Shown: positions 20,730-59,568 of the stretch, one piece after another
Layout: each line of letters begins with the position of its first letter
Position numbering within the stretch: position 1 is the stretch's first letter
Source of the DNA: Actinomycetota bacterium
Lineage (GTDB): Bacteria > Actinomycetota > Acidimicrobiia > Acidimicrobiales > RAAP-2
Direction: 5' to 3'
NCBI GenBank assembly: GCA_021324355.1
Contig: JAJPJD010000026.1
Coordinates: forward strand, 1-64,000
Length of the DNA: 64,000 nucleotides
Notes under the pieces: generated by a model
What the model saw: the letters and a program-made list of their open reading frames with translations, nothing else
What the model was told of the DNA's origin: nothing
Database searches by the model: none
Made by a program: the position numbers and the translations under genes

Positions 20730-20735
20730 AGCGTA
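20730..20735 (-). promoter_or_regulatory. -10 element TACGCT for the DegT operon
   Basis: On the minus strand TACGCT is 8 bases from the GTG at 20721, matching the leaderless spacing seen elsewhere. Confidence 0.5.
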
Positions 20736-20833
20736 CTTCAGGGCCCGTCGGTTGACTTGCTCGATCGTCGCCTGGACGACCCCACCCTTGGCCGTCGGGC
20801 CTTGCGGGCGTCCTCTGAGAAGGCGTCCGACCT

Positions 20834-22759: not shown

Positions 22760-23059
22760 GCAGCTATCCTTGCATCAGGACGGTCGTCATGCTGAGGGTC
22801 CGGTGCCGAGCCTTCGTGGCCACAACCCTTCGGGCAGCTCAGCCATCGAGCGTGGCCAGCGACAAGAAGGGCGTCAGCAGTGCGCTCGAGGGCGGCCTTG
22901 CTCGGGATCCCGACCTGGCCAACGCCCGGGGCGATCCCGCGTGGCGATCCTCTTCGTCGCCGAGATGATCGCTCCCGCTCCGGCGGCGGTGCGTGAACAG
23001 TAGGTCGACCTCGATCATCAGAGACGGCTGGACGACGACGGCACGGTTTGGAGGACGTG
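22760..23059. other. Gene-free stretch between alcohol dehydrogenase and second Gfo/Idh gene
   Basis: About 300 bases. Frames on both strands are short and show no family features. It contains the ribosome site of the alcohol dehydrogenase near 22765 and presumably its promoter, but no hexamer stands out. Confidence 0.35.
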
Positions 23060-32658: not shown

Positions 32659-32664
32659 TACCAT
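32659..32664 (+). promoter_or_regulatory. -10 element TACCAT opening the glycan locus
   Basis: TACCAT overlaps an in-frame ATG at 32663 and is 7 bases before the GTG at 32672, so the GTG is the likely leaderless start and the ATG lies within the promoter. Confidence 0.5.
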
Positions 32665-32671
32665 GCGGCCC

Positions 32672-34330
32672 GTGGCCGCGCACGTCCTCGACCCGGCCCG
32701 TCCCGGGACGCCCTCGGAGCCGGCCGAACCTTCACTGCGGGCCGGCGCCTGGGCTGCGCTCAGCCGGAGCTGGCGGAGCCTCGCGGTGGGGGTCGGCCTG
32801 CTCACGGTGGCGGCCGGGATCGGGCTTCGGTTCTGGACCCGCTCGCCGCTGTGGCTCGACGAGGCGCTCACGGTCGACATCGCTCGCCACCCGCTGAGCC
32901 AGCTCCACGCGCTGCTGCGAGAGGACGGGGCGCCGCCGCTGTACTACGTCCTCCTGCACTTCTGGATGCGCGTCTTTGGGACCTCGAACCTCGGGGTGCG
33001 TTCGTTGTCGGGGGTGATCTCGGTGCTCACCCTGCCGGTCGGTTGGCTGCTCGGCCGCAGCTACGGCCGGCAGGGCGCGTGGGCGACCCTGGTGCTGCTG
33101 GCCGCCTCACCGTTCGCGATCTACTACGGCACCGAGGCCCGCATGTACTCGCTGGTCATGCTGGTGAGCGGGCTGGGGATGGTGGCCCTGATGCGGGCCA
33201 TGCAGCGAGTGAGCCCGTGGAACCTGCTCGGGATCGCAGCTGCGACCGCGGCGCTCCTCTACACCCAGTACTGGGCCCTGTATCTGGTGGCCACGGTGGC
33301 GGCGTGGCTCCTGTGGCGGGCGAGGAAGAGCGCGCCCGACGCTCGGTCCCGAACCAACGCCCGCTGGTGCGTCGGGGCCCTCGCCGTGGGGTGCGCCGCC
33401 TTCCTGCCCTGGGTGCCCACCTTCGTGTTCCAGGCGAAGCACACCGGCACGCCGTGGGCTGCGCCGGGGAACTTCGGAGCGATCGTGAGCGCGATCACCG
33501 GGTTCACCGACAACCAGGCCACGCTGTCCACCGCCGGCTCCAACCAGGGGCGGCTGCTCGCGATCTTGTACCTGGTGCTCGCGTTCCTGGCCATCTTCGG
33601 GCTGGCTCGGGACCGCTGGCACATCGACCTCGACCTGCGGACCCGACCCGGCAGTCGCGCCCTGGCCCTGGTGGTGTTCGGCACCCTGGTCGTCGCAGTG
33701 GCCGGCGGGCTGCTCACCAAGAGCGGGTACTCCAACCGCTACGCCTCGATCGTGTTCGTGCCGTTCCTGGTCCTGGTGGTCCTGGGGCTGCTCACGATCG
33801 GAGACCGGCGGGTGCGGCTGGTGGTGGTGGCGGCGGCAGTGGCCGCTGGCCTGGCGGTGGCCGCGCAGAACGTCACCACCGAGCGGACCCAGGCCGGGGC
33901 GGTGGCGTCGGTGCTGGCCGCCCATGCGCACCCCGGTGACGTGGTCGCCTACTGCCCCGACCAGCTCGGCCCGTCGGTGTGGCGGCTCACCGCCGATCGG
34001 GGGTACCGGCAGCTGACCTATCCCCGCTCGATCGGGCCGTCGCTGGTCGACTGGATCGACTACAAGGCGGCGATCCGGGCGTCGTCGCCCGCCGCGTTCA
34101 CCCGGGAGCTGCAGGCCCTGGCCGGGCCGGGCCACGACATCTGGCTGGTGTGGGCCTCTGGCTATCAGGGGTTCGGCACCCGCTGCGAGCAGATCGCGAC
34201 CGAGCTGATCCAGACGCCGGGCTACGGCGGGCGGACCTGGGTCGTCGAGCGCCCGAGCACCTATTACGAGCCGATGAACCTGACCGAGTACGCCAAGGTG
34301 CCGGGTCCAGGACCGCTCCAGGGTCCGTGA
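32672..34330 (+). CDS. Polytopic membrane glycosyltransferase, GT-C fold (GT39/PMT-like)
   Basis: About 552 residues with roughly ten hydrophobic segments. The first extracytoplasmic loop has WTRSPLWLDEALTVDIAR, the W-x-D-E motif that is the catalytic acidic pair of ArnT/PMT-like GT-C enzymes using lipid-linked sugar donors. DGAPPLYYVLLHFW and YYGTEARMYSL are also typical. A soluble C-terminal domain of about 150 residues follows the last helix. Donor and acceptor are unknown. It shares GTGA with the next gene and opens a run of cell-envelope glycan genes. Confidence 0.82.
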   Translation: MAAHVLDPARPGTPSEPAEPSLRAGAWAALSRSWRSLAVGVGLLTVAAGIGLRFWTRSPLWLDEALTVDIARHPLSQLHALLREDGAPPLYYVLLHFWMRVFGTSNLGVRSLSGVISVLTLPVGWLLGRSYGRQGAWATLVLLAASPFAIYYGTEARMYSLVMLVSGLGMVALMRAMQRVSPWNLLGIAAATAALLYTQYWALYLVATVAAWLLWRARKSAPDARSRTNARWCVGALAVGCAAFLPWVPTFVFQAKHTGTPWAAPGNFGAIVSAITGFTDNQATLSTAGSNQGRLLAILYLVLAFLAIFGLARDRWHIDLDLRTRPGSRALALVVFGTLVVAVAGGLLTKSGYSNRYASIVFVPFLVLVVLGLLTIGDRRVRLVVVAAAVAAGLAVAAQNVTTERTQAGAVASVLAAHAHPGDVVAYCPDQLGPSVWRLTADRGYRQLTYPRSIGPSLVDWIDYKAAIRASSPAAFTRELQALAGPGHDIWLVWASGYQGFGTRCEQIATELIQTPGYGGRTWVVERPSTYYEPMNLTEYAKVPGPGPLQGP

Positions 34331-35487
34331 GCGCGCCGGCCCGGCCGCTGTTGGCCGGCCGCGCCCGCATGGGGGTCTTCGTTCGGGCGCTGCGAGCGGT
34401 GGCGGTGCCCTACGTGGTGGCCAGGGTGGTGGTGCTCGCCGCGCTCGGCATCGCCCACCTGGTGGTGTCGCGGGGGCATGCCTCCCCGGCAGTGATCTTC
34501 CGGGTCCACCAGGGGTTGCTCGCCTGGGACGCCGGGTTCTACGAGTCGATCGCCCACTTTGGCTATGCGCCCTTCGGCCACCAGGCCCTCCGGTTCTTCC
34601 CGCTGCTGCCGCTGGTGGCCAGGGCGCTCGGCACCACTGGCCTGCCGGATGCCGCCGGGGTGGTGGTGGTCGCCAACGTCGGTGCGCTGATGGGCACGGT
34701 GCTGCTGGTGCTGTTGGTGCGGCGGGAGACCGGCGATGAGCAGCTGGCCCGGCGCAGCGCCTGGGTGCTGTCGCTCGCCCCGCCGGCGTTCTGCCTGGTG
34801 CTGGGCTACGCCGAGGGGCTTCTGCTCGCCCTCAGTGTCGGTTGCTTCCTGTGCATCCGCCCGGCCGCCGGGTCGCGTCCCCGCTGGTGGTGGGCTGCCG
34901 GGCTGGGTTACGCGGCCGCGCTCACCCGCCCGCTCGGGGTCCTGGTGGCCTTCGCCGTCCTTGCCGAAGGGGTGCGCTGGTGGCAGCGGGCCCAGGGCGC
35001 CGAGCGGCTCGGCATCCTGGCCGCCCTGGCTGGGCCACCGGCCGGGATCGTCACCTTTCTCGGCTGGTCGGCCGCCGCAGAGGGGGACTTCTGGCTGCCG
35101 CTGCGGGTCCAGACCTCGGCCGGCCACCACGGTGGCCTGAGCGACCCCGTCGCCACCGTCCTGCACGATGCTGACGGTGTCCTCCACCACCACCTGGGCA
35201 CCGCGCTCCACGTGCCCTGGGTGCTCCTGGTCGTCGTCCTGGTGGTGGCGGCCTGGCGGACCCTGCCCGCCTCCTACGGCGCGTTCGCCACCGCGGTGGT
35301 GGCGGTGGCGGTCACCGGCACCAACCTCGACTCCTTCGAGCGCTACGCCCTGAGCGCCTTCCCGCTGGTGGTGGTGGTGGCGATGGCCTTGCGGACCCGC
35401 TGGTTCGAGCGGGCGGTCCTCACCGGGTCGGGGGCCCTGTTGTTCGCGTACTCGCTGGCCGCATTCCTGAACCGCCTGGTTCCCTAG
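34327..35487 (+). CDS. Membrane mannosyltransferase-like protein (PIG-V family-like)
   Basis: About 386 residues, nine or ten predicted membrane helices, and LLAWDAGFYESIAHFGYAP in the first large loop, resembling the W-D-x-x-x-Y-x-x-I-A-x-x-G-Y motif of PIG-V-type GT-C mannosyltransferases. It also has FFPLLPLVAR and GYAEGLLLALSVG, typical of the family. Coupled by GTGA to the preceding glycosyltransferase. In actinobacteria such proteins add mannose from polyprenyl-phosphate mannose; that role here is inferred. Confidence 0.75.
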   Translation: MSAPARPLLAGRARMGVFVRALRAVAVPYVVARVVVLAALGIAHLVVSRGHASPAVIFRVHQGLLAWDAGFYESIAHFGYAPFGHQALRFFPLLPLVARALGTTGLPDAAGVVVVANVGALMGTVLLVLLVRRETGDEQLARRSAWVLSLAPPAFCLVLGYAEGLLLALSVGCFLCIRPAAGSRPRWWWAAGLGYAAALTRPLGVLVAFAVLAEGVRWWQRAQGAERLGILAALAGPPAGIVTFLGWSAAAEGDFWLPLRVQTSAGHHGGLSDPVATVLHDADGVLHHHLGTALHVPWVLLVVVLVVAAWRTLPASYGAFATAVVAVAVTGTNLDSFERYALSAFPLVVVVAMALRTRWFERAVLTGSGALLFAYSLAAFLNRLVP

Positions 35488-35513
35488 GGTGGGGTGCGGC
35501 GCGGGTGGTCCAC

Positions 35514-35519
35514 TAGTCT
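35514..35519 (+). promoter_or_regulatory. -10 element TAGTCT for the flavoprotein operon
   Basis: TAGTCT is followed by about 118 bases of leader before the GTG at 35638. Candidate only. Confidence 0.3.
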
Positions 35520-35637
35520 TGCCCCCCGGGACGCGGGCCGCTCGGCAGTCACGAGGGAGCCGAGCCAGGCCCCCGGTTGCCGGGCGCTGGCTGGGGCTCG
35601 GCCGCCGGCGGAGGCCGGCCTGCCTGAAGGGGTACGG

Positions 35638-37188
35638 GTGAGCACACGAGGTGAGACTGGCCCGGGCGCCGGGCGGGACGGGCGCACCCGACTGCAGGAG
35701 CCAGTCGTCGTGATCGGTGCCGGCCCTGCCGGGCTCACCGCCGCCTACCAGCTGGCCAAGGGGGGCGACCCGGTCGTGGTGCTGGAGGCCGACGAGGTCG
35801 TCGGCGGGATCTCGCGCACCGTCGAGCGGGACGGCTGGCGGTTCGACATCGGCGGCCACCGGTTCTTCACCAAGGTGAAGCCGGTCGAGGACCTTTGGAA
35901 CGAGATCCTCCCGAGCGAAGACTTCCTGGTCCGGCCGCGCAAGAGCCGCATCTTCTACAAGGGCAAGTACTACGACTACCCGCTGCGCCCGGCCAACGCG
36001 CTGTGGAACCTCGGCCTGAAGGAGGCGGTGCTCTGCGGCCTGTCGTATGCACGAGCCCGGGTCGCCCCGCCCAAGGACCAGACCAACTACGAGGGCTGGC
36101 TGGTGGCCCGGTTCGGCTGGCGTCTGTACCTGTCCTTCTTCAAGACCTCCACCGAGAAGGTCTGGGGGGTGCCGGTGTCGGAGATGCCGGCGGACTGGGC
36201 GGCCCAGCGGGTCAAGAACCTCGAACTGGGCAAGGCCGTCCTGCACGCGCTCAGCCCTCGACGCAACCAGACCGAGATCACCACGTTGATCGAGGAGTTC
36301 CGCTACCCGAAGTTCGGACCCGGGATGATGTGGGAGGTGTGCCGGGACAAGGTGGAGCGCCTGGGCGGCCAGGTGCAGCTCGGCGCGCGGGTGACCAAGG
36401 TCCACGTCGAGGCCGGCAGGGCGACCGGGGTGACGTTCGAGTCCGAGCACGGCCCCCGCTTCCTCGCCGCCAGCCATGTGATCTCGTCCATGCCCATCGC
36501 CGAACTGGTGCCCGCCATCGACCCGGCACCGCCACCGGCCGTGCTGGCCGCCGGGCGGGACCTGCGCTACCGGGACTTCCTCACCGTCGCCCTGGTGGTG
36601 CCGTTCGAGGCCGGCTTCGAGGACAACTGGATCTACGTGCACGCCCCAGACGTCGAGGTCGGCCGGATCCAGAACTTCGGCCAGTGGTCCCCCTACATGG
36701 TGAAGGAGGGGACGACCTGCCTCGGTCTCGAGTACTTCGTCTTCGAGGACGACGCCCTGTGGAAGGCCGACGACGAGACGCTGATCGAGAAGGCCACCCA
36801 CGAGCTGGGGGTGCTCGGCTTGGTCGAGCCGTCGGCGGTACAACGCGGGTACGTGGTCCGGGTGAAGAAGGCCTACCCCTACTACGACTTCGCGTACCGT
36901 GACAACGTCGCCGCGGTGGTGTCGTGGCTGTCGGCCAATGCGCCCAACGTGCACCTGGTCGGGCGCAACGGGATGCACAAGTACAACAACCAGGACCACT
37001 CGATGTTCACTGCCATGCTGACGGTCGAGAACATCCGGGGCGCGAGCCACGACATCTGGGCCGTGAACGTGGAGGAGGAGTACCACGAGGAGCGCCGGGC
37101 CGACGGAGCTCGACCGCCAAGCGCGGGCACCGGACGCCTGGCCCCGATCCTGCCCCGCCGGGAGGAGTCGGGCTCGGCTCGCCGGTGA
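35638..37188 (+). CDS. FAD-dependent oxidoreductase, UDP-galactopyranose mutase/protoporphyrinogen oxidase-like
   Basis: About 516 residues from the GTG at 35638, with GAAGGGG 6 bases before. The ADP-binding motif is VVVIGAGPAGLTAAYQLA, then EVVGGISRTVERDGWRFDIG and GHRFFTK. It ends with NGMHKYNNQDHSMFTAML, the FAD end motif seen in a COG1232 subgroup found in glycan loci. Members isomerise or oxidise sugar nucleotides or prenyl sugars; the exact reaction is not known. It is coupled by GTGA to a methyltransferase. Confidence 0.8.
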   Translation: MSTRGETGPGAGRDGRTRLQEPVVVIGAGPAGLTAAYQLAKGGDPVVVLEADEVVGGISRTVERDGWRFDIGGHRFFTKVKPVEDLWNEILPSEDFLVRPRKSRIFYKGKYYDYPLRPANALWNLGLKEAVLCGLSYARARVAPPKDQTNYEGWLVARFGWRLYLSFFKTSTEKVWGVPVSEMPADWAAQRVKNLELGKAVLHALSPRRNQTEITTLIEEFRYPKFGPGMMWEVCRDKVERLGGQVQLGARVTKVHVEAGRATGVTFESEHGPRFLAASHVISSMPIAELVPAIDPAPPPAVLAAGRDLRYRDFLTVALVVPFEAGFEDNWIYVHAPDVEVGRIQNFGQWSPYMVKEGTTCLGLEYFVFEDDALWKADDETLIEKATHELGVLGLVEPSAVQRGYVVRVKKAYPYYDFAYRDNVAAVVSWLSANAPNVHLVGRNGMHKYNNQDHSMFTAMLTVENIRGASHDIWAVNVEEEYHEERRADGARPPSAGTGRLAPILPRREESGSARR

Positions 37189-37949
37189 GCGCGCCGGCAG
37201 AGGGCGCTCGCCCGCCTCGCGCCGACGGCGGCCTGCGCACCTTCTACGAGGACCCGGCCACGACCGTGCGGTCGGGGGCAGAGCGGGCAGCCCGCCAGGC
37301 GGCCATGCTGGTCGACGCGCTCTCGGGCTCCCCGGGACCGGTCCGGGTGCTCGACCTCGGGTGCGGGGACGGCGCCTCAGCCGAGGTCGCCCGGGCCGTC
37401 TGCCGGGAGGCCGGGCTCGACGTCCGGTTCGTGGGGATCGACTGGTCCCGTCCGGCCGCCCGGGCCGCCCGGGGCCGCGACCTGCCGGTCGCCTGCGGCG
37501 CCGTCGACGGGCCCGGGCTCCCCTTCGGCCCCGGGACCCTCGACGCGGTCATCTTCTCCGAGGTCCTCGAGCACCTGGTCGACACCGACGGCGCCCTGGC
37601 CGAGATCCGCCGGGTCCTGGTCCCGGGGGGCGCGCTCTTGGTCTCCACCCCCAACCTGGCCGCGTGGTTCAACCGGGTCCTGCTCCTCGTGGGCATCCAG
37701 CCGCTGTTCACCGAGGTCTCGATCCGCGCCATCTACGGCCGTCCGGGGTCCCAGGTGGTCGGCCACCTCCACGTGGCCACTCGCCGGGCCCTGGTCGAGC
37801 TGCTGGCGGCCAATGGGTTCGTCGACATCGAGCTCGCCGGTGCCCCCTACCACGACGTTCCCGGGCCCCTGCGGCCCCTCGACCGGGCCCTGTGCCGCTT
37901 CCCCGGGGTCGCGTCCATCCTGCTTGCCCGGGCTCGCAAGCCCGGCTAG
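37185..37949 (+). CDS. Class I SAM-dependent methyltransferase in the glycan locus
   Basis: About 254 residues. Motif I VRVLDLGCGDGASAEVA, then VGIDWSRPAA, FSEVLEHLVDTDGALAEI and RRVLVPGGALLVSTPN are typical of Methyltransf_11/23 enzymes. It may methylate a lipid-linked sugar. Its gene is unusual in that three quarters of it is also open on the other strand, as the C-terminal end of the AftD-like frame. Confidence 0.85.
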   Translation: MSAPAEGARPPRADGGLRTFYEDPATTVRSGAERAARQAAMLVDALSGSPGPVRVLDLGCGDGASAEVARAVCREAGLDVRFVGIDWSRPAARAARGRDLPVACGAVDGPGLPFGPGTLDAVIFSEVLEHLVDTDGALAEIRRVLVPGGALLVSTPNLAAWFNRVLLLVGIQPLFTEVSIRAIYGRPGSQVVGHLHVATRRALVELLAANGFVDIELAGAPYHDVPGPLRPLDRALCRFPGVASILLARARKPG

Positions 37950-40900
37950 GGCGGCCGTCGGCGCCGGACGCCAGCTCCGGGCCACCCCGACCAGCGCGTC
38001 GGCGGCCAGGGCGGCCAGCGAGGCCCAGACCAGCCAGCTGGCAAGTTCCGGTGGGAAGGGGTGATGGAGCTTGGAGAGGACCACGATCGCCGCCGCCGCG
38101 CCCAGCAGCCCGATGGCCCCCAGGCTGAGGACGCTGCGCAGCCAGCGCAGGCTCAGCGCCGCCAGCGACGCAGCCGCGATCCCCAGGCCGATCCACCGGT
38201 TGCTCACCGCGAGGGCACCGGCGCCGAGCGCCACGGCGACGATCGGGATCGACCACAGCCGGGGCCGTCGGCCTCGGTCCCGCCACGGGCCGCACAGCCG
38301 CGGTGACACCTCGATGCCCTCGTCGCCGCCCAGCAACGAGGCGGGCAGGCTGGTGGGGACGGCTCGCCGCCGCCTGACGAGACCGAGCAGCGGGAGGAGG
38401 ACCACGCCGAGGCAGAAGGCCAGGGCCAGCGCCGAGACCACCAGCGCGCCCCAGACCGCTCGCTGAGGGGTCCAGGTGAGCGACACGTTGAAGGTGCCGC
38501 TCTTGGTGGCCCCGAGCGCCCGCACGTCGGCAGTTGAGACCGGCCAGCCGTTGGCGAACCCGTCGACCAGCTCGGAGCGACCGAGGCTGACCGAGTGGGA
38601 CCCGGCGCCGGAGTGGGTCGTCGGTTCGGCTACCGCCTGCCACCCGGCGTTGACGCTCTGTCCGAGGACCAGCTCGAAGGGTCCGCTGACCCCGGTCACC
38701 CGCAGCTGTTCGCTGGTGGAGGTCTGGCCGACCACCCGCACGCTGGGCGCCGGGCCGGGCTGGGTGGCTGGGATCGAACCGAACGTGCTCGGTGCGCCGG
38801 GGCCGCCCCCGGGTGCTGAGTCCAGGATCAGCTGGTCGATGTTCCACCCGGTCGAGGTGGCATGGCCCAGTGCGGTGGTGATCACGTGGGTGCCGGCGGA
38901 CAGGGTGATTCCGTGGGCGTCCGGGCCACAGGGGACCAGGGTCATCTGGTCGCCGGCCAGGGCGGCGGCGCTGCTGCCGACCATTTCGACGCTGACCGGC
39001 CGGCCATCGATCGCGATCAGGTTGGACCGGCAGACCGCTGGGAGTTGGGGCGGCACCGCGGACACCTGGACCCCGGGGATGCCGACCTCGGCGATGGCCA
39101 TCGGGAGGGCGACCGGGGTCGCCGAGTAGTAGTTGGTCGAGTACTCGAGCCTGACCCCGGTGATGGTGATCCGGATCTGGGAGCCGGTGAGCGGGGCGAA
39201 GGACACCGGCACGCTGACCGTTGCTCCTTGGCGGTGGCGGTCGCGGATCGTGGGCAACGAGACGACACGGGATCCCTGCTCGGTGGACACGGTGATTTGG
39301 GTCGGGACCGAGTGGCGGCCGTCGGCCACGATCTCAAGGTCGAGGTGGTCGAAGGTGATCGGGTGCTTGAGGTCGTACTCGAGCCACTGGCCCCTTTGGT
39401 ACTGGGCCCCGAAGCCGTCCTGCCACGCAGTGGCAGGGTTGCCGTCGGCCGCCGCCGACGCGGTGGCGGCGAGGTCTCCGGGGAGCCGACCCTTCGAGTA
39501 GGCGATGACCGGGCTGGAGGGCGTTTCCCGGCCGACCAGGGTGTCGATCTCGTCGTCTGGGATGAGCGGCGAGATGGTCGCGGTCCCAGAGATGCTGAAG
39601 GTGCGGGCCGTGGGGAGGGTGAACTCCCGGTCCAAGGTGGTCTCGGGGTCGGTGCGGTAGGGAAACAGGTAGGGCGAGACCCGCTCCCTCGACATGTCGA
39701 TGGTCAGGCGGTTGGCGAGCGATGCGGTGCCGGCTGCCTTGAGCAGGTCCTCGGGCATCTTGATGACCTGGAGGACGTGCAGGCCCGGCACTTCCACCTC
39801 GGCGAAGCCGATGGAGGTGGCCGTCGCCGGGTTGGCGTGATCGTCGGTGGTGGCATCGACGGTGATCCGCAGGGTCGAGAACGAGCGGGTCGAAAAGGTG
39901 ATGGTCTGGCCGGCCGGGGCGAGCGAAGCCGGGGTGAGCGTGGCGGTCACCGGCTGTCGGCCGTCGAAGGTGAGGGTGACCTTGGTGATGGTCCGGCTGG
40001 TGTTCCCGTTCTGCGGCTGCACCAGGGTCACCTGGTCGGCAGAGATCGGCCTTCCCAGCTGCACCTGCCACCACTGGCCGGCTGGGTCGGGCATCCCGAT
40101 CCCGGTGGTCCAGCTGGTGTCGAGGTTCCCGTCGATGGCCGAGTACGCGGCGTCCTCGGGGGTGTAGGAGTCGGCGTTGCCGTAGGAGGAGGCGGTGACG
40201 TTGACCGCGCCGAGGTAGGTGGCGACCGTTTTGGCGTCCGGCGGGGCCCCCGGGCTCAGCTCGATCGGCGAGTCGCTCGGATCGGTCCGGGCGACGTGGT
40301 CCGAGGGGGTCTCGGTGAAGCCGTAGTCCCCGACGAAGGTGTCCCACCGGAAGGCTTGCTTGCGGTTGGTGTCGGTGAGCACTAGCGCCGCTCCTCGAGC
40401 GAGCAGCTTGTGCAACTGGGCCGGGTGCTCGTCGAGGGTGCTCGAGTAGTAGATCGCGCTGGTGGTGTCGAGCAGCCCGGCCGCGGCCAGGTCCTGGAGC
40501 CCGACCCCGTCGCCGGCGACGATGAGCGCACCGCTGTCGGACTCTGCCCTGGTGATGGGCCGCGGGTCGACGACGGTGTAGTCGACGAGCGGTGGCGGGT
40601 TCGGCAGGGGGGTGATCGAGGCCTCGTTGGCGTCGTTGAGGTCGCGGTAGCTCGGGATGTTGGGCACCGGTCGGCCGAAGGCGACCGGGTTGCTCAGCCC
40701 GGCCGGGGTCTGGGCGAGCTGCTGGGCGAGAAGGGTCGGCTGCGGGCTGTTGTAGTGCTCGAACGCCTGGTCGTACTCGACCAGGACGTCGCCGGCGCTG
40801 AGGAGGCGGGCCAGTGGGGCGAGCGCCCCCCACTGCTCGGTGCCGAGCTGGATGGGATCGTCCAGCGCGGCCAGCAGGTCGGCGGTCGGGATGGACCCCA

Positions 40901-42440: not shown

Positions 42441-42498
42441 CGTGCTGTAGGCCCGACCGCGCCGAGGTGCCGGGTCAGGTGCGAGAAATTTGCGGCGT

Positions 42499-43581
42499 CT
42501 AGCTGGGCCGATCGGGTGGTGACGGTAGCGTAGAGCGGCGCCAGACACCCGAGCCGGTCGCCTCGGGGACCGGCGCCCGGGGCGCCAGCTGGCCTCCGGC
42601 CTCCCCGCCGAGCGCCGGCCCGGCGGGGCCGGCGACCAGGTCAGGGTTGGTGGCCTCGAGCTGCAGGGGCTGGTGGCGCGCCGGTTCGACGGCCACCGGC
42701 CGGGCCCGGGCCAGCAGCGCCACGCCCACGAGCACCCCGGCAAAGCCGGCTGCCCGCAGCGCCAGCTTCCAGCCCGAGGCCGGGAGGTGCTCGCCGAAGA
42801 TCACCGTGCCCACTGCGACCACGTACGTACTGGAGACGACGTTCGACACCGGCACCACCACCGAGGCCGCGCAGCGCTGCAGGGCGGTCTGGAACAGGAG
42901 CAGCCCGACCCCCGAGGTGGCGACGAAGGCATAGAGGTACCCAGACGCAAGGACGTGGGGGATCGCCAGCCACACCCCGTGGCGAGCGACGATTGCCGAA
43001 ACCGCCTTCACGGCCAGGCCGCTCACCCCGTAGAGGAGACCGGTGCTCAGGCCGTAGGCCGCCGCCCGGGCGTTGCGGTGGAGCCGCTGGCCGGCGACGT
43101 GGTCGGCCAAGGCGAAGGCACCGGCCACCGCCACCAGGGTGGGGACGGCGGCCAGGGCCAGGACGCCCAGGTGCCCGGTGACCCCTACCTGGTCGCTCGT
43201 GAGGTCGAGGGAGAGGCTGATGCACAGCAGGGCGGTGGCGACCAGGCTGACCGCGACCCACTCCCGCCGCCCCAACCGCTCGCCCAGGGTGAGGTGGGAG
43301 AGGCCCAGGAGGACGACCACGCCGGATACCAGGATCGGCTGCACCACCGAGATGGGCGCGACCGACAGCGCGACAACCTGCAGGGCAAGGCCGCCGAGCA
43401 TGGAGCAAAAGCCGAGAACCCAGGTGGGCGAGGAGGCGACCGTGGTGACCAGGTGCACCAGACGGCGCGCGTGGACGGCCGGCAGGTCCTCGAGCCCACG
43501 CTTCTCCAGGACGAAACCGACGTTGTACAGCACCGTCGAGAGCAGGCTCACCAGCACCCCGGCCGCCAGGTGGTGGCTCAC
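42499..43581 (-). CDS. EamA/DMT-family membrane transporter
   Basis: About 360 residues from the GTG at 43581 with ten hydrophobic segments in two similar halves, as in drug/metabolite transporters. LSTVLYNVGFVLEKRGLEDLP opens the first repeat and VVVPVSNVVSSTYVVAVGTV the second. It may export or flip a lipid or small molecule for the glycan locus. The C-terminal 60 residues are a proline/alanine-rich cytoplasmic tail. A GTG 9 bases upstream is an alternative start. Confidence 0.78.
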   Translation of the reverse strand: MSHHLAAGVLVSLLSTVLYNVGFVLEKRGLEDLPAVHARRLVHLVTTVASSPTWVLGFCSMLGGLALQVVALSVAPISVVQPILVSGVVVLLGLSHLTLGERLGRREWVAVSLVATALLCISLSLDLTSDQVGVTGHLGVLALAAVPTLVAVAGAFALADHVAGQRLHRNARAAAYGLSTGLLYGVSGLAVKAVSAIVARHGVWLAIPHVLASGYLYAFVATSGVGLLLFQTALQRCAASVVVPVSNVVSSTYVVAVGTVIFGEHLPASGWKLALRAAGFAGVLVGVALLARARPVAVEPARHQPLQLEATNPDLVAGPAGPALGGEAGGQLAPRAPVPEATGSGVWRRSTLPSPPDRPS

Positions 43582-43660
43582 GGGATGCACCCTGCGGGTG
43601 GCCGGTGACGAACCCAGCCGGGGTCGCGGCCGTGCACCGACCAGGTGGGCATGGGATGCC

Positions 43661-43666
43661 AGCGTA
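43661..43666 (-). promoter_or_regulatory. -10 element TACGCT for the DMT transporter
   Basis: On the minus strand TACGCT lies about 80 bases before the GTG at 43581. It would give a leader of about 72 bases. Candidate only. Confidence 0.3.
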
Positions 43667-43698
43667 CTGCCGTGCACCGCCCGGCTGCCGGTGCGGCC

Positions 43699-44664
43699 TC
43701 AGGGACGGCGGTCGCTGCTCGGAACCGGGAGCCCGCGGTAGCCGGCCACCGGCTGGTCGGCTGGGCACGCGCCTGGCCCCGCCACCCCGATCTGGTAGCG
43801 CAGGTCGGCCGTCCACGGTCCGTCCTGCCAGCCGGGGGCGGATGGCGCGAGTCCGATCGCCTGGCCGAGGTCGTGCACGATGAGCTGGGCCAGTTCTGCT
43901 GCCCCGAACGGGCACAAATGGATGTTGTCGACCTGGCGGACCCGCACCTCGCGGCCGGCACTGTCCGGGGCCCAGGTCAAGAACCGGCCATCGGGATCGA
44001 AGACCTGGTCGGTCGCCAGGTAGCGAGCGTGCGGGCCGAAGGCCGCCACCGCCTGGGCAGCTTCGGCGTCCCATGCCCGTTGCTCGGCGGTGAGGGTTGC
44101 CCACAGTCGGGCCCGGAGCAGGGGCTGGGCGATGAAGGTGTTCGGGCCGATCTGGGGGAACTCCACCAACAGCACCAGCTCGACACCGTCACCGGGGGTG
44201 AGCCACCGGGCGAGCGCCTGGCGCAGGAGTGCCTCGTACGCGGTCGGGTCGTCCCCAGCCACGGTGTCGTCCCAGGACCAGGTGCCGATGATCACTTGGG
44301 GGTGGAAGGCGGTGATGATCTGCTCGGTGTCAGCCGCCCATGCCGGGACGGTCGTGAGCCCCCACCCCCCGAAACTCGAGTCGGCCACGATCTCCCCCTC
44401 GCCAGTCGCGGCGAGCGCGGCGGCGAGCGCCGGGGAGCCGTCATGCATGACGCTGTCGCCGAGCACCCAGACCCGCAGCGGGTCCTCGGGCGTCGGTGGC
44501 GGCCCGGCCGGGCCGAGCCCGACCGCCGCTGCCGGTCGGGTCGACGGGTCTGCCCCAGGCGGCGGCGCTGGTCGACCCGGGACCAGCAGGGCGAGGGACA
44601 GGGCCGCACTGAGCGGCACCGTTGGTCCCCACCAAGCCCCTCGACGTTGGGGGCGCCCTCCCAT
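43699..44664 (-). CDS. Exported SGNH-fold hydrolase
   Basis: A 321-residue protein with an N-terminal signal or anchor (VPLSAALSLALLV), then a proline-rich linker and an SGNH domain: VWVLGDSVMHDG (nucleophile serine), SFGGWGLTT (glycine block), GTWSWDDT in the asparagine block position, and VDNIHLCPFG with the Asp-x-x-His pair. These act as O-acetyl esterases or transferases on surface glycans. The leaderless ATG at 44664 lies 9 bases from TAGTCT. It diverges from the GT4 gene. Confidence 0.8.
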   Translation of the reverse strand: MGGRPQRRGAWWGPTVPLSAALSLALLVPGRPAPPPGADPSTRPAAAVGLGPAGPPPTPEDPLRVWVLGDSVMHDGSPALAAALAATGEGEIVADSSFGGWGLTTVPAWAADTEQIITAFHPQVIIGTWSWDDTVAGDDPTAYEALLRQALARWLTPGDGVELVLLVEFPQIGPNTFIAQPLLRARLWATLTAEQRAWDAEAAQAVAAFGPHARYLATDQVFDPDGRFLTWAPDSAGREVRVRQVDNIHLCPFGAAELAQLIVHDLGQAIGLAPSAPGWQDGPWTADLRYQIGVAGPGACPADQPVAGYRGLPVPSSDRRP

Positions 44665-44673
44665 GCGGGAGCG

Positions 44674-44679
44674 AGACTA
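44674..44679 (-). promoter_or_regulatory. -10 element TAGTCT for the SGNH hydrolase
   Basis: On the minus strand TAGTCT is 9 bases from the ATG at 44664, near-leaderless. Confidence 0.45.
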
Positions 44680-44718
44680 GGCGGCCCGTCAGCTTGGTGG
44701 GTAGGGGGGTCGGGCCGG

Positions 44719-44760
44719 TAGGCTGTGCCACTGCTGCTGCGGGGTCCGAAGCAGCAGCAG
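44719..44760 (+). promoter_or_regulatory. GT4 promoter with a hairpin at the transcript start
   Basis: TAGGCT at 44719-44724 is the -10 element. Transcription would begin near 44731, exactly where CTGCTGCTGC starts; its perfect complement GCAGCAGCAG is at 44751-44760, with loop GGGGTCCGAA. The mRNA would thus open with a 10-bp stem-loop. It could stabilise the message or be an operator. Confidence 0.55.
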
Positions 44761-44820
44761 TGGCTGGGGGGGCAGAGGGTGCGTGGTCGACCGGCCGAGC
44801 AGCCACAGCACGACCGAGGG

Positions 44821-46008
44821 GTGATCGGGATCGACCAGCTCAGCGGGGAGCACATCCCGACGCTTCGTGAGGTGGTGGAGGAATCGGGGACCCGGCGGGT
44901 CGACGTCGTCGCCTGGCGTGACCTCGACGATCCCGAGGCCGGCGGGTCCGAACTCCATGCCCACCAGGTGCTGTCCCGCTGGGCGGCGGCCGGGGTCGAC
45001 GTCCGACTGTGGACGTCCCGGGTTGACGGCGCGGCCCGCGAAGTCGAGCGGGGCGGCTACCGGGCGATCCGTCGGGCTGGCCGGTACGCGGTGTTCCCGG
45101 TGACTGCCCTCGATGCGCTGCGCGGCCGGCTGGGGAGCGGCGACGGGGTTGTCGAGATCTGGAACGGCATGCCGTTCTTCTCACCCCTGTGGACCCGTCG
45201 CCCGAGGATCGTCTTCCTCCACCACGTGCACGCCGAGATGTGGCACATGGTGTTGCCCGAGCGGCTGGCCCGGATCGGCTCGGCGATCGAGCTGCGTCTG
45301 GCCCCGCCCCTGTACCGGCGGGCCCGGATCGTCACCCTCTCCGAGTCGTCCAAGCGCGACATCGTGCAGCGCCTGGGGTTCCACCCCGACCGGGTCAGCG
45401 TCGCCCCGCCGGGGATCGAGCCCCGGTTCTCGCCTGGCGGTCCCAAGGCCGCCGACCCGCTGGTGGTCACCGTCGGCCGGTTGGTGCCGGTGAAGCGGTT
45501 CGACTGGTTCATCGACGCGATGGCCAAGCTGCGGGCCGACCACCCGACGCTCGAGGCGGTGGTGGTGGGAGAGGGCTACGAGCGCCCGGCCCTGGAGGCT
45601 CGGGTGCGGGCGGCCGGGGCCTCGGAGTGGTTGCGGCTCCCCGGGAGGCTGTCCGACCCCGAGCTGCTCGACCTGTATCGCCGGGCCTGGCTCCTGGTCG
45701 CGACCTCCTCGCACGAGGGTTGGGGGATGACCATCACCGAGGCGGCCGCCTGCGGGACCCCGGCCGTGGCCACCCGGATCCCCGGGCACGAGGATGCGGT
45801 CGTCGAGGGGGTCTCGGGCCGGCTGGTGGACACGATGGAAGACGTCGTGAGCGCGGCCAGCGCCCTCCTGGCCGACGACGATCTCCGCTTCCGGCTGTCG
45901 GCCGGGGCCATCGAGACCGCCCGCCGCCACAGTTGGGAGACGACCGCCCTGCTGGCGTTCCGGGCGCTGGCCGAGCAGCGGGCCGCCATGGCCGGGCGGA
46001 GGGGTTGA
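44821..46008 (+). CDS. Glycosyltransferase family 4 (GT-B fold)
   Basis: About 395 residues from the GTG at 44821; the frame is open back to a GTG at 44725 inside the promoter, which I reject. VAWRDLDDPEAGGSELHAH, FLHHVHAEMWHMV, VTLSESSKRDIVQRL, VGRLVPVKRFDWFIDAM and SSHEGWGMTITEAAACGTPAVAT (the E-x7-E donor motif) place it in GT4. It probably adds a hexose to a lipid-linked glycan on the cytoplasmic face. Its stop overlaps the TTG of the acyltransferase gene. Confidence 0.88.
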   Translation: MIGIDQLSGEHIPTLREVVEESGTRRVDVVAWRDLDDPEAGGSELHAHQVLSRWAAAGVDVRLWTSRVDGAAREVERGGYRAIRRAGRYAVFPVTALDALRGRLGSGDGVVEIWNGMPFFSPLWTRRPRIVFLHHVHAEMWHMVLPERLARIGSAIELRLAPPLYRRARIVTLSESSKRDIVQRLGFHPDRVSVAPPGIEPRFSPGGPKAADPLVVTVGRLVPVKRFDWFIDAMAKLRADHPTLEAVVVGEGYERPALEARVRAAGASEWLRLPGRLSDPELLDLYRRAWLLVATSSHEGWGMTITEAAACGTPAVATRIPGHEDAVVEGVSGRLVDTMEDVVSAASALLADDDLRFRLSAGAIETARRHSWETTALLAFRALAEQRAAMAGRRG

Positions 46009-47375
46009 CCGAGGTCGCCACCGACCGTGGCGCCAGGGGGGCGCCGGCCGAGGAGGTCCCGTCGGTCCCGGCCCGTCCGCTCCCGGCCGAGCCCTCGGGG
46101 TCTGCGCCCGAGCCGCCGACCCCGCGTCGGCCTCCCCGGTTCCCCTGCTTCGACGGCCTGCGGGCGATCGCGGCCGGAACGGTGCTGGGCGTGCATGTGG
46201 CCTTCGTCTCCGGCCTCACCCTGCGGGACCCGGGGGTCGGGATCTACACCGCCCGGCTCGAGATCGGCGTGGCCGTCTTCTTCCTCATCTCGGGGTTTCT
46301 CTTGTACCGGCCGTTCGTGGTGGCCCACCTGGCTGGCGAGCGCGACCCGCTGACCGGGTCGTTCTGGGTCCGGCGCCTGCTGCGGATCGTCCCCGCCTAC
46401 TGGGTCGCGTTGTTCGTGACCACCACGGTGCTCCACGAGCCGATGGGGTCGGGCGGGTGGCGGGCGTACCTCATCCATTACGGCTTCGCACAGATCTACT
46501 TCCCGAGCCAGATCGAAGGCGGCATCACCCAGGCCTGGACGCTGTGTGTGGAGATGTCCTTCTATCTCGCCCTTCCTCTGTACGCGGCCCTGGTCGGCCG
46601 GGGGCGGGAGCGCCAGTCGCCACGGCGTCGGCTCCGCCGGGCGATCGTCGGCCTGGGGGCGATGGTCGCGGTGAGCCTGGTCTGGCGGTTCGCGGTGCTC
46701 TCCTTCCAGCACGGCCACGGCCCGCTGGTGGCGACCATGACCGTGTGGCTCCCGGCCGAGCTCGACCTGTTCGCCCTGGGCATGGGCCTGGCGGTGGTGA
46801 GCGCCTGGCTCCATCAGCACGGGGCCGAGCCAGCCTGGATGTCCGGACGCTGGTTCCCCTGGGCCAGCTGGCTGCTGGCCGCGGCGGCCTTCGTCGGGGT
46901 GAGCCACCTGGGCATCTCGCGCCAGGCCTTGTACACCAAGACCTACCTGGACATCGCTCGTCAGACCCTCTACGGGGTGTTCTCGCTGTTCCTGCTGCTG
47001 CCGGCGGTGTTCGGGCCTCAGCGGGTCGGCCTGGTGCGGCGGGTCCTGCAGTGGTGGCCGGTGGCTTCGCTCGGCGTCGTCTCCTATGGGGTGTACCTCT
47101 GGCACCAGACCCTGATCGACCAGTTGGTCCGGCACTACCCCGAGTGGTTCGGCCACCGGCTCTTCTTCAACGTGGGCTTCTGGGGAATGTTCGGCGAGAT
47201 CGCCGGGGCCGCCCTCGCCGTGGCCACCCTGAGCTACTTCGTCGTCGAGAAGCCGGCCCTGCGGGCCAAGCGGTTCTTTGCGTGGTTCGGCTCGCCCAGG
47301 CCCTCCCCTCGGCCCCGCCCGGCACCGCCGTCGGAAGGAGCAAGGCCGCTCCCCGATATCGCGGCGTCGCCGTGA
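46005..47375 (+). CDS. Membrane acyltransferase family 3
   Basis: About 456 residues starting at TTG in a TTGA overlap, with GGAGGGG just upstream. A 45-residue proline-rich cytoplasmic N-terminus precedes FDGLRAIAAGTVLGVHVAFV, the family start with catalytic histidine, then SGFLLYRPF, WVRRLLRIVPAYW and ITQAWTLCVEMSFYLALPL. About ten helices. It transfers acetyl or other acyl groups to surface sugars. Unlike the next gene it lacks an SGNH domain. Confidence 0.88.
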   Translation: MTEVATDRGARGAPAEEVPSVPARPLPAEPSGSAPEPPTPRRPPRFPCFDGLRAIAAGTVLGVHVAFVSGLTLRDPGVGIYTARLEIGVAVFFLISGFLLYRPFVVAHLAGERDPLTGSFWVRRLLRIVPAYWVALFVTTTVLHEPMGSGGWRAYLIHYGFAQIYFPSQIEGGITQAWTLCVEMSFYLALPLYAALVGRGRERQSPRRRLRRAIVGLGAMVAVSLVWRFAVLSFQHGHGPLVATMTVWLPAELDLFALGMGLAVVSAWLHQHGAEPAWMSGRWFPWASWLLAAAAFVGVSHLGISRQALYTKTYLDIARQTLYGVFSLFLLLPAVFGPQRVGLVRRVLQWWPVASLGVVSYGVYLWHQTLIDQLVRHYPEWFGHRLFFNVGFWGMFGEIAGAALAVATLSYFVVEKPALRAKRFFAWFGSPRPSPRPRPAPPSEGARPLPDIAASP

Positions 47376-47411
47376 CCGAGCGGTGGGCCGGCGAAGCGCG
47401 ACGCTGAGCCC

Positions 47412-49565
47412 GTGGAGGACGAGGCGGGAGGCCGGCACCCGAACGTCGGGCCTCGGCGCCGGAGCGAGCCGGCGCACCGGCAGCGTCGGCGGCCGAGGTC
47501 CCGGTCCGCTCCGGCCGAACGGGGACCGGTCACGGCCCCCGATGCCGCCCCGGCCGGACCCCACCTTGCGTACCTGCCGGCTCTCGACGGGGTGCGGGCC
47601 TTCGCCGTCCTCGCGGTCATGGCGTTCCACGGGGGGCTGCCATTCCTACCGGCCGGCTTCCTCGGGGTCGACACCTTCTTCGTGCTCTCGGGGTTCCTCA
47701 TCACCTCTTTGTTGGTGTCGGAGTGGCGGGCGACCGGAACGGTCCGCCTACGGGCGTTCTGGGCTCGCCGGGCCAGGCGTCTGCTCCCGGCCCTCCTCCT
47801 CGTGGTGCTCTTCGTCGCGTTGTGGAGCGACATGGTCGCCCCGAAGGGGACCTACCCGGACTTGCGGGCCGATGCCCTGAGCGCGCTCTTCTACGCTGCC
47901 AACTGGCACTTCATCGCGGCCGGGGGGAACTACTTCGTCCAGACCGGTCCGGCCTCGCCGCTCACCCACACCTGGTCGCTGGCGATCGAGGAGCAGTTCT
48001 ACCTGCTGTGGCCCCTCATCGTCCTCGGTGTGCTCCGGTTGACCAAGGACCTGCGGGTGCTGCTGGGGGTGGCCGTGGCCGGGGCCGCAGCGTCGGCGGT
48101 GGAGATGGCGGTGCTGTTCCGGAGCGGCACCGACCTGACCCGTCTCTACTACGGCACGGACACCCACGCCCAGTGCCTGCTGGTGGGGGCGGCGGTCGCG
48201 CTCGGGTGGGCGCTGGCCGGCCAGCGCCGGGCGCAAGGCTCGGCGCTGCCAGCCACCGCCGGCCGGATTCTGGGTGCCATCGGCGCGGCCGGGGCGGTGG
48301 GGACTGCTGCGCTGTGGTGGCGCACCAGCTACACCAGTGCGTTCTTGTGGGAGGGCGGCTTCGTGCTGGCCGCGCTGGCCACCGCGGCGGTCGTGCTGAC
48401 CGCCGCGGTGGCAGGGGGCTCGGCGGTCTCGAGGGTCCTGTCCTGGAGTCCGTTGCGCTTCCTCGGCCGGATCTCCTACGGGCTGTACCTGTGGCACTTC
48501 CCGCTCTTCCAGTGGGTCGATGCCGAGCGCACCGGCCTTCGCGGCTACCCGCTGTTCGGGGCCCGTCTCGGGGTCACCGTGGTGGTGGCGACGGCGTCCT
48601 TCTATCTGGTGGAGCGGCCGATCCGCCATGGTGGGGTGCTCCGGCGGTGGCGAGCCTGGGTCGCGACCCCGGTGGCGGTCGCCGGGGTGGCCGGCCTGGT
48701 GGTCGCGACCACGGCCGGAGGGGCCGGGTTGGCGGCCGGCGCATCGAGCCCACCGAGCACCCCGCCCAGCGTGCCGACGGTGACCAGTGTGCCCACCGGT
48801 GGGCAGCCCGGGCCGCCAACCACGGTGCTGCTGCTCGGGGACAGCACCGCGGTCACGTTTGGCTTCGGTCTGGGGGTGCAGGCCCACCAGTACCATGCCA
48901 CCCTGGTCAACCAGGCGATCATCGAGTGCGGGGTCGCCGAGGTGACCGACGTCGAGACCGGCCAGGCGGTCGAGCCGCCGGGACCGGCGTGCCGACCGGG
49001 GACCGATCCGGTCGACCAGTGGCCGGCCCTGTGGCAGGCCGACGTGGACCGGTATCGGCCGCAAGTGGTCGCGATCCTGGTCGGACGCTGGGAGGTGAGC
49101 AACGTGAAGTGGGACGGTGCCTGGACAGACATCCTGTCCACCCCCTTCGCGCACTACGTCCGTCGCCAGCTCCAGCTGGCGGTGGACATCGCCTCGTCCG
49201 AGGGGGCCCACGTGGACCTGCTCACCGCCCCCTGCTACGACAGCGGCGAGCAGCCAGACGGCGATCCCTGGCCGGCCGACGCGCCGTCCCGGCTGGCCGC
49301 GTACAACGCCATCGTGCGGGCGGTCGGGGCCGCCAACCCGAGCGTGGTCACCGTGGTGGACCTGGACGCCATCGTCTGCCCGGGGGGCCGCTTCGTGGCC
49401 AACGAGAACGGGATCCCCATCCGGGCCCCCGACGGCGTGCACTTCCCGTGGTTCACGGTCGGCCAGCCGGACGCTGCCGACCCCGACACGCTGGCCCAAG
49501 TGGACCGGTTCGGCGATTGGATCGGGCCACGGGTGTGGCCGAAACTGCTGGGGACGGGGAGGTAG
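47412..49565 (+). CDS. OatA-like acyltransferase with C-terminal SGNH domain
   Basis: A 717-residue two-domain protein. Residues 55-440 form the acyltransferase-3 membrane domain (ALDGVRAFAVLAVMAFHGG, SGFLITSLL, ARRLLPALLL, WSLAIEEQFYLLWPL). After a Ser/Pro/Thr linker, residues 470-717 form an extracytoplasmic SGNH domain: LLLGDSTAVTFG (serine near 475) and DGVHFPWFT with the Asp-x-x-His pair. Such fusions O-acetylate peptidoglycan or polysaccharides. A 55-residue Arg/Pro-rich N-terminus precedes the first helix. coaE starts 2 bases after its stop, so expression is probably linked. Confidence 0.9.
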   Translation: MEDEAGGRHPNVGPRRRSEPAHRQRRRPRSRSAPAERGPVTAPDAAPAGPHLAYLPALDGVRAFAVLAVMAFHGGLPFLPAGFLGVDTFFVLSGFLITSLLVSEWRATGTVRLRAFWARRARRLLPALLLVVLFVALWSDMVAPKGTYPDLRADALSALFYAANWHFIAAGGNYFVQTGPASPLTHTWSLAIEEQFYLLWPLIVLGVLRLTKDLRVLLGVAVAGAAASAVEMAVLFRSGTDLTRLYYGTDTHAQCLLVGAAVALGWALAGQRRAQGSALPATAGRILGAIGAAGAVGTAALWWRTSYTSAFLWEGGFVLAALATAAVVLTAAVAGGSAVSRVLSWSPLRFLGRISYGLYLWHFPLFQWVDAERTGLRGYPLFGARLGVTVVVATASFYLVERPIRHGGVLRRWRAWVATPVAVAGVAGLVVATTAGGAGLAAGASSPPSTPPSVPTVTSVPTGGQPGPPTTVLLLGDSTAVTFGFGLGVQAHQYHATLVNQAIIECGVAEVTDVETGQAVEPPGPACRPGTDPVDQWPALWQADVDRYRPQVVAILVGRWEVSNVKWDGAWTDILSTPFAHYVRRQLQLAVDIASSEGAHVDLLTAPCYDSGEQPDGDPWPADAPSRLAAYNAIVRAVGAANPSVVTVVDLDAIVCPGGRFVANENGIPIRAPDGVHFPWFTVGQPDAADPDTLAQVDRFGDWIGPRVWPKLLGTGR

Positions 49566-49567: not shown

Positions 49568-50182
49568 GTGTTCGGGATCGGTTTGACCGGTGGGATCGGC
49601 AGCGGCAAGAGCGCCGTCACCGACCGGCTGGCCCAGCGGGGCGCTCAGGTGGTGGACGCCGACGAGATCGTCCACGAGATCCAGCGCCCTGGGGGGCCGG
49701 CGTTCACCCCGGTGCTCGAGCGCTTTGGCGAGGGGATTCGGGCCGCCGACGGCACCATCGACCGACCGGCGCTGGCTCGCATCGTCTTCAACGACCCAGC
49801 CGCCCGAGCCGACCTGAACGCCATCGTCTGGCCGCTGGTTGGCGAGCGGATGCGGGAACGAGCCCAGGAGCTGGCGGCCAGCGACGACGTGGCGGTCTTC
49901 TCGATCCCGCTGCTGCGGCCAGAGCACCGGGCCCGGCTGGGCTACCACGCGATCGTGGTGGTTGACTGCCCGACCGAGGTCGCGCTGGAGCGCCTGGTTC
50001 GCCTGCGGGGCATGGACCGCAACGATGCCTTGGCCCGGATCGCCGCCCAGATCAGCCGGGAGGAGCGCCGCCGCGGAGCCGACTACGTGATCGACAACTC
50101 CTCGACCCTGGAGCACCTCGATGCCGAGGTCGAGCGGCTCTGGGCCTGGATCGAGGAGCGCCGGGCGGTGGTCGGCACGTAG
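49568..50182 (+). CDS. coaE: CoaE, dephospho-CoA kinase
   Basis: About 204 residues from the GTG at 49568. GLTGGIGSGKSAVTDRLA is the P-loop, VVDADEIVHEIQRPGG the substrate loop, and VDCPTEVALERLVRLRGM with EERRRGADYVIDN the lid and C-terminal region. It phosphorylates dephospho-CoA in the last CoA step. In mycobacteria coaE is next to rpsA; here 17 kb of glycan genes intervene, although the position before uvrB is kept. Confidence 0.94.
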   Translation: MFGIGLTGGIGSGKSAVTDRLAQRGAQVVDADEIVHEIQRPGGPAFTPVLERFGEGIRAADGTIDRPALARIVFNDPAARADLNAIVWPLVGERMRERAQELAASDDVAVFSIPLLRPEHRARLGYHAIVVVDCPTEVALERLVRLRGMDRNDALARIAAQISREERRRGADYVIDNSSTLEHLDAEVERLWAWIEERRAVVGT

Positions 50183-55829: not shown

Positions 55830-55881
55830 TTCAGCACGGGCGGGCCGGGCACGGTGGGGAGTCGGTCGGCGCAGTGGGCAC

Positions 55882-55887
55882 TACCCT
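55882..55887 (+). promoter_or_regulatory. -10 element TACCCT for the 710-residue membrane protein
   Basis: TACCCT is 9 bases before the GTG at 55897, near-leaderless. Confidence 0.4.
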
Positions 55888-55896
55888 GGCCGCCCG

Positions 55897-59483: not shown

Positions 59484-59568
59484 GGGGGTCTCCGAAGGCC
59501 GCCAGATGGCGCCCGCCACCAGCTTGGCCCCCCGATGTGCCGGTGTCCACCATCCCCCTGTCGGGGGC

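Follow-up and report, generated by a model that had tools for sequence, protein, structure and literature searches.

An AftD-containing glycan locus between rpsA and coaE in the class Acidimicrobiia suggests an arabinofuranose-containing envelope glycan without arabinogalactan machinery

In mycobacteria, rpsA adjoins coaE. In the 64,000-nucleotide stretch analyzed here (the window; contig JAJPJD010000026.1 of assembly GCA_021324355.1, class Acidimicrobiia) the two genes enclose about 17 kb of glycan genes, and the question that this locus raises is which glycan it makes. We consider it rather likely that the window carries an envelope-glycan locus of Acidimicrobiaceae-like genomes, which builds and acylates a D-arabinofuranose-containing glycan without arabinogalactan machinery. 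The observations behind this reading are the gene identities, an arabinose-donor cassette elsewhere in the genome, linkage of cassette and locus in one related family, and co-occurrence across genomes. Our analysis confirms the locus itself, which is also conserved in relatives. The host genome comprises 2.445 Mb in 64 contigs at 96% completeness and is probably a metagenome-assembled genome (MAG).

Genes were called from open reading frames (ORFs) and codon-position GC, followed by Pfam and NCBIfam searches of the window proteins. The order is polA, rpsA, g1 to g4, then g5 to g7 on the minus strand, g8 to g10, coaE, uvrB and uvrA, with g11 and g12 further along, past uvrA. A sequence-only reading had placed a surface glycan locus here, and our calls confirmed both its 17 kb between rpsA and coaE and its contents: GT-C enzymes, an AftD-like protein, a flavoprotein resembling UDP-galactopyranose mutase (UGM), a GT4 enzyme, two acyltransferases and an SGNH protein, recognized by Pfam or NCBIfam and, for g2, by fold. 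To this list they add a methyltransferase (g4) and a NIPA/DMT protein (g6). That this is an envelope-glycan locus in the class Acidimicrobiia is likewise supported. The borders and genes of the locus are:

31256..32614, plus strand: rpsA, left border, with four S1 stretches
32663..34330, plus strand: g1, GT-C glycosyltransferase (PMT_2) of 555 aa (Pfam)
34369..35487, plus strand: g2, GT-C glycosyltransferase, by fold only, no Pfam match
35494..37188, plus strand: g3, PRK07208-family flavoprotein, closest to eukaryotic-type UDP-galactopyranose mutases (NCBIfam, sequence, fold)
36924..37949 (longest ORF; domain from about 37280), plus strand: g4, class I S-adenosylmethionine (SAM) methyltransferase (Pfam)
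37377..42440 (start at about 42440), minus strand: g5, AftD-family GT-C with F5/8C and CBM_AftD domains (PF11847)
42499..43677, minus strand: g6, NIPA/DMT-type membrane protein (Pfam/NCBIfam)
43699..44664, minus strand: g7, SGNH/DUF459 protein (Pfam)
44725..46008, plus strand: g8, GT4 glycosyltransferase (Pfam/NCBIfam)
46005..47375, plus strand: g9, AT3 acyltransferase (Pfam)
47412..49565, plus strand: g10, AT3-SGNH acyltransferase (Pfam/NCBIfam; 93 bits to the SucT model, cut-off 1275)
49568..50182, plus strand: coaE, right border (Pfam)

The central gene of the locus is g5. Its GT-C_AftD domain (PF11847) scores 278.7 bits against a cut-off of 26, and the carbohydrate-binding modules F5_F8_type_C and CBM_AftD lie at its C-terminus. 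A profile of 16 g5-type sequences matches the solved mycobacterial AftD (6wbx, 6w98) over nearly the full length with an E-value of 7e-102. D54 and K56 are invariant in all 16 aligned sequences and are the counterpart of the DTK of 6wbx. A passage of PMC12041299 assigns a role in GT-C_A enzymes to the Asp after the first helix, and D54 is predicted to be this catalytic residue. In a maximum-likelihood tree of AftD N-terminal domains (40 rows kept of 41 found, one being too short) all 26 Acidimicrobiia rows form one clade (100/100) and the mycobacterium-like and other actinobacterial AftDs form a separate one of nine rows (100/100); five rows of other families sit closer to the Acidimicrobiia clade than to the mycobacterium-like clade. 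The closest named relatives of g5 come from MAGs of Acidimicrobiaceae/Acidimicrobiales, with Aciditerrimonas ferrireducens slightly more distant.

The AftD genes also showed some peculiarities. The g5 frame is stop-free for its last 190 codons, which run antisense through the methyltransferase gene g4 (37377-37949), and the same holds in two related loci, L055 and L060. Synonymous resampling of g4 leaves the antisense frame open in 73% of cases, so the overlap does not need to be a selected feature. One genome (G220, stretch L042, 5971-7567) has a second AftD copy, broken by an internal TGA, beside an intact one and followed by pieces resembling a GT2-methyltransferase. Two AftD loci, L125 and L130, lie on contigs labeled Bifidobacterium breve and Acidobacteria, possibly binning or label errors.

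For the arabinose donor, the sequence-only reading had proposed searching the genome for dprE1/E2 and ubiA. A PF04030 search gave a short match on another host contig (C23, stretch L139), where all three genes are adjacent and score over the NCBIfam equivalog cut-offs for the arabinose donor:

L139, 7629-8498: UbiA (DPPR synthase), NF008978, 318 bits against a cut-off of 207
L139, 8566-9906: DprE1, NF053785, 549 bits against a cut-off of 500
L139, 9927-10673: DprE2, NF053786, 258.6 bits against a cut-off of 250

These scores support the prediction of a full decaprenylphosphoryl-arabinose cassette in the host genome, which makes arabinose likely. The arabinose or galactofuranose pathway genes on which the earlier proposal hinged are thus present, in the form of this cassette. 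The host DprE1 shares 42% identity over 464 aa with its counterpart in a mycobacterium-like genome (G038), and N52, D53, D56 and D60 of the phosphoribosyltransferase are invariant in all 18 aligned sequences; we take them to be the conserved Asp-rich motif of this family. The cassette resembles the known decaprenylphosphoryl-arabinose pathway (Rv3806c, DprE1, DprE2) in its three adjacent enzymes, and differs in that no Emb or AftA was detected in the host genome and in its flanks, a phosphodiester glycosidase (NAGPA, 6130-7638) and a polysaccharide deacetylase (11536-12447). A further sequence comparison concerns a residue of DprE1 that we take to be the benzothiazinone target Cys387. Here the host has Ala (WTLALDLP), as does G038, and genome G278 has Cys; the host enzyme may be insensitive to benzothiazinones.

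Do AftD and DprE1 belong together? We drew one set of 296 genomes from the phylum, 27 of them in the class. DprE1, counted at E ≤ 1e-30, occurs in 44 of the 296, and so does AftD (43 above the cut-off); the AftD genomes include four weak matches, G034, G056, G122 and G283, with G122 below the cut-off. Both genes are present in 30 genomes, AftD only in 14, DprE1 only in 14 and neither in 238 (Fisher p 5.5e-20, a test that, like the next, takes no account of kinship). Within the class the same counts are 17, 1, 3 and 6 (p 0.0017). Physical linkage was observed in family f2, where DprE1 lies 5-24 kb from AftD on one contig in six of seven AftD-positive genomes (G031, G091, G113, G156, G188 and G252); in the seventh, G123, the two are on separate contigs. 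Elsewhere in the class, the families that have both genes, the host among them, carry them on separate contigs or with 100 kb or more in between.

In G188 everything lies in a single run, which begins with HAD phosphatase, UbiA, methyltransferase, DprE1, DprE2, GT4 and oxygenase and continues with two g11-like genes, a g12-like gene, AftD, a g2-like gene and two AT3-SGNH genes. The host has a relative of the HAD phosphatase that heads this run (contig C39; 40% identity, E 6.7e-29), and our guess is that it serves in donor synthesis. A polyprenyl phosphoribosyltransferase, a HAD phosphatase, a DprE-type epimerase and a GT-C are also the parts of the three-component pentofuranose systems treated in passages of PMC11127046; the differences are that the GT-C here is of the large AftD type and that the HAD candidate of the host is on another contig. 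The G188 run also ties the window's two genes past uvrA to the same system, since the two g11 relatives (31% and 35% identical) stand between DprE1/E2 and AftD, and a g12 relative with 57% identity stands beside AftD. The sequence-only reading had placed a further GT-C and a GT2-methyltransferase fusion there; Pfam confirmed the fusion, and the GT-C label of the large membrane protein is probable.

55717..58029, plus strand: g11, large membrane protein of 770 aa, putative GT-C, no Pfam match
58026..59606, minus strand: g12, GT2-methyltransferase fusion (Pfam)

Judged by the genes, the locus does not make mycobacterial arabinogalactan, since none of the priming, polymerizing, capping and galactan enzymes searched for turned up in the host genome. 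AftA (PF12249) was absent from the host, the sole genome searched for it. Emb (PF04602) was found in none of the 27 class genomes, host included, and in two of 42 genomes searched (G038 and G278). A protein query for AftB gave nothing in the host and, among the class genomes, weak matches in G294 only; the bacterial-type Glf (PF03275) and GlfT2 (PF17994) were likewise missing from the host and matched in the class only in G145. An arabinogalactan of the mycobacterial kind was rejected on these grounds. Thus of the Aft/Emb homologues proposed for searching, AftD is present and Emb, AftA and AftB were not found. Of the two sugars proposed, arabinose gained from the full donor cassette; galactofuranose has the UGM-like g3 on its side, but no PF03275 or GlfT2 match in the host. 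Six GT87 matches in the host genome (best E 1e-9, four above the cut-off) may at most include an AftC candidate. Excerpts of PMC10115798 describe arabinogalactan as unique to Mycobacteriales.

Several observations weigh against an arabinose-containing product. No DprE1 was found at E 1e-30 in 14 of the 44 AftD genomes, and three of these (G085, G139 and G214) are listed as 100% complete and carry the AftD-GT4-AT3 set; some of the 11 others have lower completeness or match AftD weakly. In the host, the DprE cassette and AftD are on different contigs, g5 shares no more than about 25-30% identity with the AftDs of the mycobacterial clade, and the D-arabinanase family DUF4185 was not found. As an independent sign of arabinan DUF4185 was dropped; in the class, five genomes score below the cut-off and a single one above it, G057, a genome without AftD and without DprE1. 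The flavoprotein g3 deviates from UGM at Q107, N163 and N207, and 36 of the 38 genomes that carry g3 outside the class lack AftD. Moreover, for a cultured strain of the class, Actinospongicola halichondriae, a passage of PMC12263773 lists rhamnose, ribose, mannose and galactose and no arabinose, a comparison of sugars alone. The three DprE1-free genomes, the lack of DUF4185 and the Actinospongicola sugars are the reasons why we put the arabinose reading no higher than rather likely.

Some of these points lend themselves to other explanations. The AftD cluster and the DprE cassette could serve separate glycans, with the AftD-like enzyme using another polyprenyl-phosphate sugar and the arabinose donor going to a different GT-C, for example a protein arabinosyltransferase; excerpts of PMC11127046 report arabinofuranose on the pili of Pseudomonas. 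The separation of locus and cassette in the host, the AftD clusters of G085, G139 and G214 and the 14 genomes with DprE1 alone, three of them in the class, would all fit, but the linkage in six of seven f2 genomes and the co-occurrence in the class would not, and we regard this as unlikely. An ordinary acylated exopolysaccharide, with the DprE cassette used elsewhere, would agree with the cultured strain and with the 37 of 51 genomes in which the g3 family occurs without AftD. GT4 and AT3 enzymes turn up frequently in sugar loci of every sort. Membership of g5 in the AftD family and its association with DprE make a glycan of this type highly improbable. Alternatively, the locus might make true arabinogalactan or lipoarabinomannan with Emb, Aft and galactan enzymes diverged past recognition. 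The donor cassette, AftD and the UGM-like flavoprotein are all present, and the host also has unassigned GT-Cs besides the GT87 matches. The scarcity of Emb, AftB, GlfT2 and Glf throughout the class, together with the absence of AftA from the host, speaks against it, and we think it quite improbable.

For the arabinofuranose-containing glycan that we favor, we infer chemistry, acceptor and order of steps as follows. UbiA would transfer phosphoribose from phosphoribosyl pyrophosphate (PRPP) onto polyprenyl phosphate, a phosphatase would strip the 5-phosphate from the polyprenyl-phosphoribose product, and DprE1/DprE2 would epimerize ribose to arabinose. The acceptor would be assembled by GT4 and other cytosolic enzymes, and g3 may provide a furanose, e.g. 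UDP-galactofuranose. The donor would then be flipped outwards, perhaps via g6, a candidate transporter or flippase, and AftD and the two small GT-Cs (g1 and g2) would transfer sugars outside. The AT3 and SGNH proteins would finally acylate or deacylate the product. A distant actinobacterial lineage, carrying genes like those for the arabinose donor of the tuberculosis cell wall, would thus probably coat itself with arabinose along a simpler route.

The flavoprotein g3 matches NCBIfam NF005548 with an E-value of 1.9e-228. Its best solved sequence matches are the UGMs of Aspergillus (E 5e-33) and Trypanosoma (E 3e-26), near full length, and with its AlphaFold model (mean pLDDT 77.7) the first 34 Foldseek rows are all UGM (TM 0.72-0.78). 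Compared with A. fumigatus UGM, the g3 family profile keeps 15 of 18 checked positions (H63, F66, Y104, W167, R182, W315, Y317, R327, Y419, R447, Y453, N457, Q458, D459 and H460), among them the substrate-binding residues H63, R182 and R327, with the three changes given above; the numbering is anchored on the N207A entry. The protein thus resembles the eukaryotic-type UGM in sequence and fold, unlike the bacterial type (PF03275), which the host lacks by our search. It is likely a sugar-nucleotide furanose mutase, with UDP-galactofuranose as one possible product. Counted at E 1e-100, its family occurs in 51 of the 296 genomes, 14 with AftD (12 from the class) and 37 without, and as an AftD marker outside the class it is ruled out by the 36 of 38 carriers mentioned above.

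Both small GT-Cs gave nothing useful in a sequence search of solved structures. The AlphaFold model of g2 matches the folds of ArnT (Z 19.8), AftB (Z 15.4) and AftA (Z 14.8), and this fold search settled its assignment as a GT-C. For g1 the PMT_2 match is the evidence for a predicted GT-C; W64, L65, D66 and E67 are invariant among 18 aligned sequences, the host copy included.

How did these genes come to lie between rpsA and coaE? The sequence-only reading called the locus inserted, and as a recent event this is not supported, since 51 of 80 named loci have coaE close to AftD; these are the best 80 of 563 relatives, which lean to near kin and often end at contig ends. In the same set GT4 (g8) is the commonest partner (57), followed, besides coaE, by uvrB (45), flavoprotein (32), g1 (27), g2 (25), g10 (14), rpsA (11) and g9 (9). 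L055 has polA, rpsA, g1 to g10, coaE and uvrB in the same order at 65-94% identity per gene, L060 is identical in order to the window from rpsA to g8, and in A. ferrireducens (L121) coaE and rpsA enclose AftD and GT4. The draw of 296 genomes is less biased; here coaE stands beside AftD in four of 17 class stretches, the three of family f1 and the one of f5. Outside the class, G085 has the order polA, GT4, a weak methyltransferase, AftD, AT3, rpsA, coaE, uvrB and uvrA, and G214 the order polA, GT4, AftD, AT3, rpsA and coaE. No polA, rpsA or coaE was found in the 9-60 kb AftD regions of ten other genomes outside the class (G013, G038, G107, G128, G138, G139, G170, G181, G272 and G278), one of which, G139, is of the same family as G085. 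Two more of them, G107 and G128 (L175 and L176, family f31), have a NIPA protein (38-40% identity) and a methyltransferase 56% identical to g4 beside AftD; DprE1 is present in both and Emb was not found. For the agreeing cases the simplest reading is a shared ancestral polA-rpsA-coaE position, the alternative being an old move of AftD genes to the same place.

Among the closest known neighborhoods is the aftD-tmaT locus (NCgl2757-2765; Rv0224c-Rv0236c), which likewise unites an AftD-family GT-C, a GT4 and an AT3 acyltransferase. In G038, GT4 (34%, E 2e-47) and AT3 (30%, E 8e-27; related to g9) lie 15 kb and 9 kb from AftD, and a methyltransferase match is weak (31%, E 2e-7 in L049; 30%, E 2e-5 in L170); from their order we take these genes to be the putative Rv0224c, Rv0225 and Rv0228. 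In an AT3 tree of 20 rows, to be read with few outgroups and long branches in mind, the G038 and G278 proteins join those from G085 and G214 (94/96). The AT3s linked to AftD in Acidimicrobiia make up a clade by themselves (100/100), distinct from the g10 type. According to excerpts of PMC8698533, corynebacterial TmaT acetylates trehalose corynomycolate, a step for which MmpA and the putative methyltransferase MtrP are required; a passage of PMC6034362 notes that the surroundings of aftD are syntenic in Corynebacteriales. The corynebacterial TmaT and MtrP act on trehalose mycolates, whereas the window locus is known from genes alone; its AftD is distant and in a separate clade, and the flavoprotein and the PMT_2 GT-C are extra.

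These likenesses suggest where the mycobacterial tmaT-aftD locus might have come from. An aftD-GT4-acyltransferase core might predate mycolic acids, have stood beside polA-rpsA-coaE in the ancestor of Acidimicrobiia and other actinobacteria, have made an acylated D-arabinofuranose polymer without galactan, and have been recruited later by mycobacteria for mycolate transport and arabinogalactan. We regard this as doubtful, all the more as the polA-rpsA-coaE position is found in only four of 17 class genomes and two of 12 outside it. More generally, the presence of AftD and a complete donor cassette in a distant, little-cultured class suggests that the building of arabinan is older than the mycolate envelope or has spread outside it, and that it is separable from the galactan and Emb enzymes.

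Amycolatopsis is not known to have mycolic acids. An abstract on this genus reports arabinose and galactose in its whole cells, so arabinose as such is nothing new for actinobacteria beyond the mycolic-acid group; new, if true, would be arabinose in the class Acidimicrobiia with this gene set. No title on an arabinose pathway in Acidimicrobiia was among the literature matches listed, most species descriptions being outside their coverage, and passages of the taxonomy paper PMC6113628 give no wall sugars for the class. Aciditerrimonas ferrireducens is a possible test organism.

Elsewhere in the window, GC is lower (0.65-0.70) at 14000-24000, a stretch with two MocA-type oxidoreductases, an alcohol dehydrogenase and a beta-lactamase-fold protein that was perhaps acquired. 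Ketoacyl synthase and acyltransferase genes of fatty-acid or polyketide type lie on the minus strand at 8322-11825.

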